Translations under genes and position numbers: made by a program
Notes under the pieces: model-generated
What the model saw: only the letters and a program-made list of their open reading frames with translations
The model's database searches: none
Told to the model about the DNA's origin: nothing
Part shown: in pieces, positions 2,553-5,099 of the stretch
How the letters are laid out: each line of letters opens with the position of its first letter
Numbering within the stretch: position 1 is the first letter of the stretch
Origin: Phycisphaerales bacterium
Lineage (GTDB): Bacteria; Planctomycetota; Phycisphaerae; Phycisphaerales; UBA1924
Assembly (NCBI GenBank): GCA_016764015.1
Contig: JAESSR010000336.1
Coordinates: forward strand, 1-5,099
Direction of reading: 5' to 3'
Length of the DNA: 5,099 nucleotides

Positions 2553-3509
2553 TTAGTCGTAGTCCTGGTCCTCATCTTCTTCATCATGATGCGTGGAGTA
2601 GAACCCCCATGGTCGAAGCGCATCATCCGATGAGTCGTCGCCAAAATCTGAGCCATATATCTCACCCGGAGGATCGTCACTACCCGAAATAAACATACCA
2701 CCCCATGAGTTGTCATTGTCCTCCCATGGGTTGTAGTCATCGTAGTGAGAAAACTCCTCGTGCCAATCCTCTTCTTCATATTCACCTGAGTCATACTCAA
2801 CCCAATCGTCGCCGTAGTCATCGTGTACTTCTTCAGGTTTAGCTGTTGGCGATACTGTCAGCAGCTCTACTTGAGCCCGTGACTCGTATGCCTCGTCGGA
2901 ATACCAACCAGACAACTGCAAGTAGCAGCGAAGCTCCATATTTGGCGCATCAGTAGGCGACCACCACCGTGCGAGGGATAGCCGAATTACACGGCCAGCT
3001 GGAAGTTCTTCTTCTGGCTTTCCTACTCCAACATATTTAATTGCAATGGGTGGCGTGATACCCACAGCCGTGTAGTAGGGCTTGCCATCGATCATGACGA
3101 GCTTAAGTGGCGAGGGCGACATCCAGAAACCCACACTGTTGCGAGGCACACCATATCGCTTTGATATGAATCCACGGCCTCGAGCGGTAAATCGAATCAG
3201 CCCATCAAACAGCACATGCGGGTCGCCGATCCATGGATCATGCCGGTTTGTGACAAAGGCCCGCATAGTCCTCATCTCCCCGACCTTTTCTTCAAGGTTG
3301 ACCACATAGTCTTCGACATGGGGAGGATTACATTCAACTGGGGTCGCCCGGACTTGCCAAATATCGCCGACTTCAATCATTGTTGATTTCGGCCATCCAT
3401 GGGCGCCGGCCTTCGGCAGTAAGCGGATCAACTCACCGGATTCTTCATTGATGCCTCCGATGCAAACCCCGTCCCACATGCGTGTCTTTGCGGCAATAAC
3501 GACGATCAT
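2553..3509 (-). CDS. Dual OB-fold (DuOB)-like protein with acidic C-terminal tail
   Basis: A 318-residue protein. Residues 1-70 open with MIVVIAAKTRMWDGVCIGGI, then ESGELIRLLP (23-32) and a VGDIWQVRATPVECNPPHVEDYVV stretch. This resembles, from memory, the first OB fold of the dual-OB family ('...K..gg.CvaGi...geWiRpl...'). Residues 97-215 would be the second half, with RFTARGRGF (106-114), VIRLSLARWW (174-183) and CYLQLSGWY (195-203). OB folds usually bind nucleic acid or nucleotides; the ligand here is unknown. From about residue 224 to the end, 36 of 95 residues are Asp or Glu and only two are Lys or Arg, with many Tyr and Trp: a low-complexity, probably disordered tail. Start choice: the ATG at 3509 overlaps the stop of the preceding DUF488 gene in an ATGA. 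An in-frame start at 3578 would overlap that gene by 73 bases and is unlikely. Third gene of the operon. Confidence 0.72.
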   Translation of the reverse strand: MIVVIAAKTRMWDGVCIGGINEESGELIRLLPKAGAHGWPKSTMIEVGDIWQVRATPVECNPPHVEDYVVNLEEKVGEMRTMRAFVTNRHDPWIGDPHVLFDGLIRFTARGRGFISKRYGVPRNSVGFWMSPSPLKLVMIDGKPYYTAVGITPPIAIKYVGVGKPEEELPAGRVIRLSLARWWSPTDAPNMELRCYLQLSGWYSDEAYESRAQVELLTVSPTAKPEEVHDDYGDDWVEYDSGEYEEEDWHEEFSHYDDYNPWEDNDNSWGGMFISGSDDPPGEIYGSDFGDDSSDDALRPWGFYSTHHDEEDEDQDYD

Positions 3510-3997
3510 GGCATGATGTGCTCCATAGGTAGGCCGGTTTGTTTCGCAAGTTCGTTCACGAGCAGTGATCGATGGCAAGCCTTAGGCTCACGCTCTACAC
3601 AGAAAAAAACCGGGCGACGCGCATCACTCAGCGTGGTCTTAAGCAATGCCCAAGCGTCGAGGTCGATCAGATTGTCTTGGATGTATCGATTCACAAACGC
3701 TGCCCCAAGCTCCGTTCGGCTGCGCTTTGCTACCCCTTGTCGAGCGTCCTCGTCGTGCTGGGCATCACGCACTGCTGAGGATGGAGCGAGTTCTTTCACA
3801 TGCATATATGTGATATTGAGCGATGCCAGGCGACTCTGCAAACGCTTGGAGTTGGCGAATGCGTACTGCGAACCTCGCAATCCTCGCCGTGCGCGCACAT
3901 CACAGAAACAGTCAACTTGTTCTCTCTGCAACGCTTCGAAGAAGGAATCTTCGGAGAAGCCATAGACACCGATCGACATAAGAACTTCAGCTGCCAC
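3506..3997 (-). CDS. DUF488 family protein (second, diverged copy)
   Basis: A 163-residue cytoplasmic protein. It has the DUF488 landmarks in order: SIGVYGFSEDSFFEAL (8-23), CDVRARRG (32-39), YMHVKELAP (64-72), and FFCVEREPKACHRSLL (131-146), which carries the conserved Cys133 and the Cys141-His142-Arg143 motif. DUF488 proteins have no settled activity; the invariant Cys and CHR residues suggest a catalytic or ligand-binding pocket. It is diverged from the upstream copy: it lacks the 'SRQPEF' segment and has instead a basic/polar insert at 73-97. Start: GTG at 3997 with GGAGGGG 8 nt upstream; an internal ATG at 3979 has no comparable site. Its stop overlaps the ATG of the DuOB-like gene by 4 nt (ATGA), and its GTG overlaps the probable original stop of the upstream DUF488 gene (TAGTG), so three genes form one operon. 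Confidence 0.88.
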   Translation of the reverse strand: MAAEVLMSIGVYGFSEDSFFEALQREQVDCFCDVRARRGLRGSQYAFANSKRLQSRLASLNITYMHVKELAPSSAVRDAQHDEDARQGVAKRSRTELGAAFVNRYIQDNLIDLDAWALLKTTLSDARRPVFFCVEREPKACHRSLLVNELAKQTGLPMEHIMP

Positions 3998-4586
3998 TAC
4001 TGCATCCCCTCCAATGACTCCGGCTCATAACGCCCGATCGATGTGAATGACTGACCAAACAACGCGCCCTGACCTCTGGTATCCGCTCTATTACAACTTG
4101 CTGAGAGACACGCTCGCCATCGCGATCTATGTGTGTTAACTCAGTGTCTTCTTTCTGGAGCGCCTGACCGATTAATTTTGACCGATGGCACCGCTCCGGA
4201 TCGAGCTCACTGCACATAATTGCAACGCGGTGGCCTCCTGCGAGGGCAGTTCGTAAGCGTTCAAGCCCAGATCGAAACGCAGGTCGCTGCTCGCATCGTG
4301 CGTAGTCAACTTTTCCATCAACAAAGCATGATGGATCATCAGGCTTACCGCCTAACTCATTGCCCATGAAAATATAGCGAATACCAGCCTGCTTGAGTAA
4401 AATTTGCAGGGCTTCCTCGTTGAACTCAGGTTGGCGTGATCTCGGTTGTGAGCGGACATCGATCAAGTACTCAATACCGTGACGATGAAGCCGCTCTAGA
4501 AAGCTCTCCCAAGATCGATCACCATAGCCAATAGATGTCAGCAATCCAGACTTGGTTTTTTTAGATGCCATAACTGTATTATACAC
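3987..4586 (-). CDS. DUF488 family protein with frameshifted C-terminus
   Basis: First gene of the operon, 199 codons as read. The core is canonical DUF488: TSIGYGDRSWESFLERL (17-33), YLIDVRSQPRSRQPEF (40-55), YIFMGNELGGKP (71-82), and IMCSELDPERCHRSKL (123-138) with Cys125 and CHR at 133-135, followed by THIDRDGERVSQQVVIERI. After Glu171 the frame gives an unlikely Ser/Arg/His-rich tail of 28 residues. Shifting frame at 4074 gives GQGALFGQSFTSIGRYEP and a stop at 3999-3997 that overlaps the next gene's GTG, so a base appears to be missing near 4074-4076. The repaired protein would have about 196 residues. The core motifs are intact, so the protein may still work. Start: GTG at 4586 has GAGGA 6 nt upstream; ATG at 4571 has no such site but follows a TATAAT that could place transcription near it. 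Confidence 0.82.
   Translation of the reverse strand: MYNTVMASKKTKSGLLTSIGYGDRSWESFLERLHRHGIEYLIDVRSQPRSRQPEFNEEALQILLKQAGIRYIFMGNELGGKPDDPSCFVDGKVDYARCEQRPAFRSGLERLRTALAGGHRVAIMCSELDPERCHRSKLIGQALQKEDTELTHIDRDGERVSQQVVIERIPEVRARCLVSHSHRSGVMSRSHWRGCSSGS
3997..4074 (-). other. Alternate-frame tail of the first DUF488 gene
   Basis: From 4074 the minus strand reads G-Q-G-A-L-F-G-Q-S-F-T-S-I-G-R-Y-E-P and continues to a TAG at 3999-3997. This 25-residue stretch looks like a native DUF488 C-terminus ('LFG..FTS..RYE' type, from recall), and its stop shares one base with the downstream GTG. The tail in the current frame has neither property. No homopolymer run lies at the junction (CCAGAGGTC), so a simple run-length sequencing error is not obvious, though an assembly error remains possible. 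Confidence 0.68.
4006..4012 (-). promoter_or_regulatory. Ribosome binding site of the second DUF488 gene
   Basis: The minus strand reads GGAGGGG, 8 nt before the GTG at 3997. It supports that non-ATG start over the ATG at 3979. It lies within the end of the upstream DUF488 gene, as in translationally coupled operons. Confidence 0.7.
4578..4583 (-). promoter_or_regulatory. Possible -10 box of the DUF488 operon
   Basis: A perfect TATAAT on the minus strand, 6 nt before the ATG at 4571. The region 17 nt upstream (TAGGTA, over the recombinase stop codon) is a poor -35. If used, transcription would begin at or within a base or two of that ATG, giving a leaderless mRNA. If the GTG at 4586 with its GAGGA is the true start, these bases are codons 2-3 and the operon is transcribed from further upstream. 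The sequence does not decide between the two. Confidence 0.35.
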
Positions 4587-4603: not shown

Positions 4604-5099
4604 CTACCCCACCCGCTGCATCACCTCAATCACTTTCGAATGATCCCGCTCGGCGTAGATCGCGTCGGTGATCTGGGCGCTCGCGTGGCCAAGGGCGAGT
4701 TGGGCGGCTTCGAGACCGAAGGCCTTGCGGATGTCCGTCGCGGCGTTGTGTCGAAGCTGATGCGGGTGCCAGCGGAATGGGGCTCGCCAATCCTTGAGCT
4801 GTTCCTTCTGCTTCTTGTTCAGCCGGGCATTCCATTGGGCGATCGTTTCATCGTCCCGCTTGCACAACGGCGGCGGTGGGGGAGACGCACGGTCGCACGC
4901 CCGTTGGATCGCGGAATAGTAACTCGGCGTGGTGTACCGATCGCCCGCTTGTTTTTCAGGATTGGGAATGCGGTTTGTACCGGTGCGGTTGCCGTAGGAG
5001 AGCGGAGTCTTGCGTTTGGCGGTGAGGGCTGCCCGTCGTTCCGACTCGGCTTCGGATGGGCTGAAGAGGTACGCATCGTCCGGGCGATCGGCAAAGAAC
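4604..5099 (-). CDS. Tyrosine recombinase (site-specific integrase), C-terminal 164 residues, 5' end outside window
   Basis: The frame is open from the right edge to a TAG at 4606-4604, giving 164 visible residues. Catalytic landmarks (numbered from the first full visible codon): box II HPHQLRH at 111-117 (His113, Arg116), box III LGH at 136-138 (His138), and the nucleophile Tyr148 in IYAERD. Ten residues separate His138 and Tyr148, one more than in XerD. The first catalytic Arg and the DNA-binding core domain lie outside the window. The segment LFSPSEAESERRAALTAKRK (11-30), then GDRYTTPSYYSAIQRACDR (52-70), is an insert I associate with planctomycete integrases. A short internal frame beginning at a TTG (4867) is only part of this gene. 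It lies just 17 bases upstream of the DUF488 operon's GTG, in the same direction, so read-through could express the operon. The gene appears intact in the visible part. Confidence 0.9.
   Translation of the reverse strand, partial: FFADRPDDAYLFSPSEAESERRAALTAKRKTPLSYGNRTGTNRIPNPEKQAGDRYTTPSYYSAIQRACDRASPPPPPLCKRDDETIAQWNARLNKKQKEQLKDWRAPFRWHPHQLRHNAATDIRKAFGLEAAQLALGHASAQITDAIYAERDHSKVIEVMQRVG

Follow-up and report, generated by a model that had tools for sequence, protein, structure and literature searches.

The 5,099-nucleotide stretch analysed here (the window; contig JAESSR010000336.1 of a Phycisphaerales bacterium) carries three genes on its minus strand, two encoding proteins of the DUF488 family (DUF488-A and DUF488-B) and one encoding a protein of the DuOB family, with a predicted dual oligonucleotide/oligosaccharide-binding (OB) core. 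They follow each other head to tail in the order DUF488-A, DUF488-B, DuOB:

3987..4571, minus strand: DUF488-A gene, 194 amino acids from ATG (PF04343, E 3.9e-25)
3997..3999, minus strand: TAG whose last base opens the GTG start of DUF488-B; stop of DUF488-A in a sister contig, out of frame with it in the window
3506..3997, minus strand: DUF488-B gene, 163 amino acids, GTG start, intact (PF04343, E 7.3e-13)
3506..3509, minus strand: ATGA placing the DuOB start over the DUF488-B stop
2553..3509, minus strand: DuOB gene, 318 amino acids (PF22557, E 4.3e-15)

The family assignments of the initial annotation were borne out by Pfam, with DUF488 scores of 89.3 bits (A) and 49.6 bits (B) against a curated cut-off of 22.2, and a DuOB score of 56.8 bits against 27, covering residues 2-202. 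The ATGA overlap that it had described is likewise seen at the DUF488-B/DuOB junction. The DUF488-N3a profile (PF22751, cut-off 27) gave 21.4 and 26.0 bits on the DUF488 pair, and a newer precomputed table assigns PF22751 to P0121, a relative 99% identical to DUF488-B of the window. An alternative GTG start for DUF488-A is possible at 4586. For none of the three proteins did a solved structure give a meaningful sequence match, and no known RNA family was found in the window. Promoter and terminator signals between 2300 and 4700 numbered 1 and 0, versus 2.5 and 1.4 in shuffled sequences. A 19-base inverted match (95%) links 3076-3094, in the DuOB gene, with 3566-3584, in the active-site codons of DUF488-B, and is probably a coincidence.

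The last ~30 codons of DUF488-A in the window are out of frame compared with the closest relatives, whose match ends at about 85% of the protein, and with a sister contig from IMG/VR (L082); the Cys...Cys-His-Arg site is intact despite the altered end. L082 is identical to the window at 4529 of 4554 aligned bases (99.45%), with one single-base gap, which falls inside DUF488-A. The frame is intact in L082 and overlaps the GTG of DUF488-B by one base (open reading frames 1-558 and 558-1049), so that the TAGTG overlap supposed to be ancestral is present in the sister contig and not in the window. The shift in the window may be a genuine frameshift or an artefact of assembly.

Recurrence and distribution of the trio

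A scan of one genome per species, with DuOB as the only query and no DUF488, matched 123 stretches, of which 88 encode a relative and 80 were kept as genome loci; three further loci came from IMG/VR. Profiles of DUF488-A and DUF488-B, built from 120 relatives each, were searched against all open reading frames (ORFs) of at least 60 amino acids in these loci and in the window. DUF488-A, DUF488-B and DuOB occur together in 71 of the 80 genome loci and in all three from IMG/VR. Counting the window, 75 of 84 loci hold the full trio, although the 84 are not fully independent, L081 (IMG/VR) being identical to L036 in layout and scores and L082 being the sister of the window. The initial annotation had suggested that DUF488 and dual-OB genes occur together elsewhere and would have been contradicted by a trio confined to this locus; the trio does recur.

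The three genes share one strand in 73 of the 75 full trios, DuOB lying on the opposite strand in L014 and L070, and separate genes are ordered A-B-DuOB in 72. The stop of DUF488-B and the start of DuOB share 4 bases in 20, and one base in 11, of the 71 loci where this could be measured. Among the nine loci lacking the full set, four are cut short where the contig ends on the A/B side (L003, L006, L010 and L049), four have DUF488-A and DuOB with no DUF488-B (L033, L038, L068 and L077), and one (L040, with a DuOB-RecQ fusion) has no DUF488 in 16.6 kb. Chance adjacency is ruled out by this rate of recurrence among loci found through DuOB alone. A local gene order of a single lineage is ruled out by the spread of the locus titles, which name Bacteroidetes, Chloroflexi, Planctomycetota, Proteobacteria, Nitrospirales, Verrucomicrobia, Acidobacteria, Bacillota and Chlorobiota, some labels of metagenome-assembled genomes being possibly wrong. 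The distances of A, B and DuOB correlate over 68 of the full trios (r 0.78, 0.65 and 0.59; values not reached in any of 999 permutations). The other seven (L032, L052, L072 and L079-L082) were dropped because they are fused, broken, incomplete or duplicates. The correlation fits joint inheritance, but also shared species history.

The distribution of DuOB is rare and patchy. A second survey of whole genomes with a DuOB alignment (E 0.001), in which each sample includes its DuOB-bearing centre genome and some matches are weak and divergent, found DuOB in 2 of 150 genomes from a single genus, sampled around a Flavobacterium, in 3 of 392 from the phylum of a planctomycete locus, in 13 of 400 from that of a Chloroflexi locus and in 10 of 395 from that of a Dysgonomonas locus. 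A DUF488 gene lies within ~1.5 kb of DuOB in 8 of the 13 Chloroflexi-phylum carriers and in 9 of the 10 Dysgonomonas-phylum carriers; some of the DUF488 neighbours met in this survey are divergent, L120 has a fusion, and L139 and L140 have the order DuOB-A-B. Carriers without such a neighbour are L118, L119, L121 and L134, together with the partial copies of L123 and L125/L129. No DUF488 was detected in 14 kb around each of L118, L121 and L119 (L141, L142 and L143), so DuOB can stand alone. These three solitary copies belong to large genomes of the Chloroflexi group, and two of them have lost Cys16. DUF488-B is found alone in L097, with no DUF488-A or DuOB in 3 kb at a contig start.

Several variant architectures were observed. 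DUF488-B and DuOB form a single frame at 7764-8474 of L072 and 1183-1893 of L120, the Cys-His-Arg site being lost from the B part of the fusion (sequence seen for L072). DUF488-A of L002 (6593-7519) and L004 (6666-7511) has an extra N-terminal region of ~110 residues, alike in both loci. The DuOB proteins P0045, P0048, P0054, P0059 and P0064 have a different C-terminal region with a CYIAT... box, and the source name of P0064 is CFI-box-CTERM.

Conserved residues, predicted folds and the RecQ fusion

The Cys...CHR residues singled out in the initial annotation are conserved throughout DUF488-A and nearly so in DUF488-B. The Cys...Cys-His-Arg site is kept in 79/79 DUF488-A proteins, across which eight active-site and glycine positions are invariant, and Cys, Glu and Cys-His-Arg are kept in 75 or 76 of 76 DUF488-B proteins, the exception being the DUF488-B-DuOB fusion of L072. 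The predicted model of DUF488-B (predicted local distance difference test, pLDDT, 95.7) resembles phosphatases, RapZ and Rossmann-like methylases in a structure comparison (second look over 998 chains). The Pfam DUF488 match and the conserved Cys and Cys-His-Arg liken the pair to the rhodanese-phosphatase superfamily, as does the rank of RapZ and phosphatases among the structural matches. Burroughs and Aravind are reported to have described in 2023 a RapZ-C/DUF488/DUF4326 clade of this superfamily, and to have predicted, by the same account, DNA-end processing in conflict systems. The title of the 2023 superfamily paper (doi 10.1093/nargab/lqad029), as it stands in the reference list of PMC12419801, covers nucleic acid modification and conflict.

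DuOB of the window has a predicted dual-OB core of 204 residues and an acidic tail of 114 (40 D/E, 3 K/R). Of the OB folds expected in the third protein, the predicted model of the core (pLDDT 95.8) has matches over its N-terminal half (second look over 995 chains). The top of its Foldseek list is filled by the HIN-200 dual-OB DNA sensors (IFI16, MNDA, p202, p204), with none of these HIN matches significant. Of the first 31 rows, 17 are titled HIN and three IFI16, and the others are presumably HIN entries too. A viral structure library gave no DuOB match at E 0.001. DuOB retains near-invariant residues; R29, H64 and E66 are kept in 19/19 covering sequences of a divergent set.

A RecQ helicase is fused to DuOB in six loci (L032, L034, L040, L049, L059 and L063). 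DEAD, Helicase_C, RecQ_Zn_bind and RQC domains follow DuOB in all 6, HRDC in four and HTH_40 in three; DuOB of the window has its acidic tail instead. The same fusion is hinted at by the long DuOB frames of L117 and L122/L128. RecQ was also sought as a separate partner gene, and two RecQ queries over the 84 loci gave only a 98-amino-acid ORF just after the L034 fusion.

Genomic context and proposed function

The gene next to DUF488-A in the window is part of an integrase:

4604..5098, minus strand: C-terminal part of a tyrosine integrase (PF00589, E 2.9e-07; phrog_1, E 4.5e-09), running off the window

The sister contig ends inside DUF488-A, so the integrase is not covered there. On the other side the trio is followed by a 241-amino-acid ORF and an AbiE-like pair, and further downstream L082 has matches to phage versions of exonuclease VIII, a Sak4-like annealing protein, a single-stranded DNA-binding protein (SSB) and a DNA helicase. 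Such a gene content resembles that found early in a temperate phage, or in a relative of one, so the trio of the window is probably cargo beside the integrase. Of the two neighbours named in the initial annotation, the recombinase corresponds to this integrase, and the toxin-antitoxin locus to a possible AbiE-type pair with weak matches. A DuOB query (L018) had no match in 50,697 phage records, and two DuOB queries against 72,556 plasmids matched a single record, pRMAR01 of Rhodothermus marinus. On this plasmid (L084 4857-6702; L114 18431-20222) the run of DUF488, DUF488 and DuOB leads directly into cas1, cas2, a J-domain gene and cas6, and type III-A csm genes lie farther along; an annotated SSB gene also lies in this stretch.

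The flanking genes were surveyed by taking the nearest gene of at least 120 amino acids on each side. Over 82 loci, with the window, L081 and L082 excluded beforehand, this gave 140 next-door genes, some loci having no gene of that length on a given side. Of these, 134 were scanned (67 upstream and 67 downstream), L045, L050 and L058 being dropped as near-duplicates of L043 and L057 by layout. Their Pfam families are mixed, with many housekeeping ones (25 of 102 and 25 of 72 families listed); among those listed, PIF1-type helicases lie downstream in 4/67 and ResIII/DEAD domains upstream in 3/67. PADLOC at 1e-20 matched 21 models upstream and 44 downstream, and those listed (25 of the 44 downstream models are named) include type I restriction, capP, PD-T4-3, PD-Lambda-5, HEC-06, AbiLi, TIR-TM, E1-E2 and MzaA. 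The control genes came from 12 contig regions in 12 carrier genomes and lay no closer than about 30 kb to the trio; 134 of the 187 were scanned and gave 24 models of about five systems. The excess near the trio lends only mild support to a defence context, because each model was counted once and the genes next to the trio come from a larger number of genomes.

PADLOC also has candidate systems resembling the DUF488 pair itself. DUF488-A matches PDC-M45B (E 8e-49), and DUF488-B matches PDC-M45C (3e-10) and PDC-M19A (6.7e-15). No A component of PDC-M45 was matched in the window, and the C model is weak on DUF488-B. No PADLOC model was matched by the DuOB proteins scanned, those of the window and five further loci. 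No description of the make-up of PDC-M45 was found in the literature searched, and a passage of PMC12988326 describes most PADLOC candidate systems as awaiting validation. Part of PMC12704722 reports a ParB-CTPase fold fused to DUF488-HTH (helix-turn-helix) in archaea, with CTP binding. This is another DUF488 fusion with a nucleic-acid theme, but Pfam found no ParB fold or HTH in DUF488-A or DUF488-B of the window.

We tentatively read the trio as a mobile DNA-processing unit, most likely one that inactivates competing phage or plasmid DNA, and this is the interpretation that we favour. In its favour are the recurrence, the conserved active site, the RecQ fusion, the OB-fold matches, the structural resemblances of the DUF488-B model, the patchy distribution, the integrase and phage genes, the copy adjacent to clustered regularly interspaced short palindromic repeats (CRISPR) genes, the PADLOC matches of A and B and the neighbour tallies. 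With its predicted OB folds DuOB would bind DNA ends or single strands of DNA, which a helicase, built in or borrowed, would expose; in some lineages the fused RecQ may open the duplex for the DUF488 pair. With their intact cysteine sites, the two DUF488 proteins could act jointly on phosphate or sugar-phosphate groups at the ends, as their superfamily suggests, or alternatively on nucleotides released there. Such cysteine-based chemistry would come at a cost to the invader. Phage-like elements, plasmids and scattered genomic sites carry the unit. The defence or nucleic-acid module of the initial annotation thus stands in part, as a recurring, patchily distributed mobile unit with conserved residues, predicted folds and fusions; its DNA binding, its chemistry, the complex of its proteins and its defence role remain conjectural.

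The main rival, which we regard as possible but rather doubtful, is a role in repair or replication for the carrying element. The trio would clean or protect the DNA ends of either the element or the host while they are being integrated, replicated or attacked, and DuOB would serve as a specialised SSB. The RecQ fusion would suit such a role, as would the PIF1-type helicases downstream of some loci, the SSB gene on the Rhodothermus plasmid and the Sak4, SSB and exonuclease genes further along L082. SSB has an acidic tail, of which that of DuOB in the window is reminiscent. A very patchy distribution is unusual for a host repair function, however, the flanks vary between loci, and CRISPR and restriction genes lie next to some copies. 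An improbable alternative is the processing of a nucleotide signal, in which a diffusible nucleotide, or a molecule resembling ADP-ribose, would sit in the OB pocket and have its phosphate stripped by the DUF488 enzymes. The strict conservation of R29, H64 and E66 exceeds what loose DNA binding needs, and part of PMC9503650 proposes ADP-ribose phosphates as substrates for DUF4326, of the same superfamily; yet the RecQ fusion indicates DNA, and no ADP-ribose-handling family is among the neighbour Pfam families listed.

Tight stop-start coupling, a mobile and patchy distribution and the AbiE-like pair adjoining the trio in the window would also agree with a toxin-antitoxin system, the DUF488 pair being harmful unless restrained by DuOB. 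We consider this very unlikely, with three conserved genes of which two are apparent enzymes, near-invariant DuOB residues unlike those of a fast-evolving antitoxin, and DUF488-A or DUF488-B also found without the full set. Also quite improbable, if only slightly less so, is that DuOB plays in bacteria the part of the HIN-type dual-OB DNA sensors of animal immunity. It would detect foreign DNA, or the ends of it, and switch on a cysteine-dependent DUF488 heterodimer, the sensor of some lineages having RecQ built in; if true, the trio would be a mobile immune system of a new sensor-effector class.

To our knowledge DUF488 has no settled biochemistry, and the compact three-gene operon makes its substrate, partner and phenotype assayable from one small unit. 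If the trio is an immune system, it adds cysteine-based chemistry on DNA ends. No paper tying DUF488 to DuOB was found in the literature searched, where absence is not absence from print, and the papers mentioning 'DuOB', 'dual OB domain' or 'dual OB-fold' were seemingly unrelated. Nor did that literature yield the fusion with RecQ, the plasmid copy beside CRISPR genes or the HIN-like ranking; the likeliest place for the first two is the 2023 superfamily paper, outside its coverage. Pfam already includes DuOB and an 'Active DUF488-N3 subclade', and the authors of these families may have noticed the association. The placing of such genes in conflict systems has probably been published before, and the novelty here is limited accordingly.

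The AbiE-like pair and its upstream repeats

The remaining features of the window lie downstream of the trio:

1611-2336: ORF of 241 amino acids between the trio and the AbiE-like pair, no family over cut-off, also in L082
1-1460: possible AbiE-type toxin-antitoxin pair, a 394-amino-acid HTH protein overlapping the start of an AbiEii-like gene that is cut by the window end

AbiEi_2 matches the HTH protein weakly (16.8 bits, below the cut-off of 21), and AbiEii was matched in the PADLOC scan (E 0.0023) on a 93-residue fragment of the nucleotidyltransferase-like gene, of which L082 has a complete copy (4276-5154). Self-repression is a habit of AbiEi. Just upstream of the AbiEi-like gene, two 48-base direct repeats (1451-1551), 53 bases apart and each with a TTTCCA...TGGAAA palindrome, look like operators for such self-repression.
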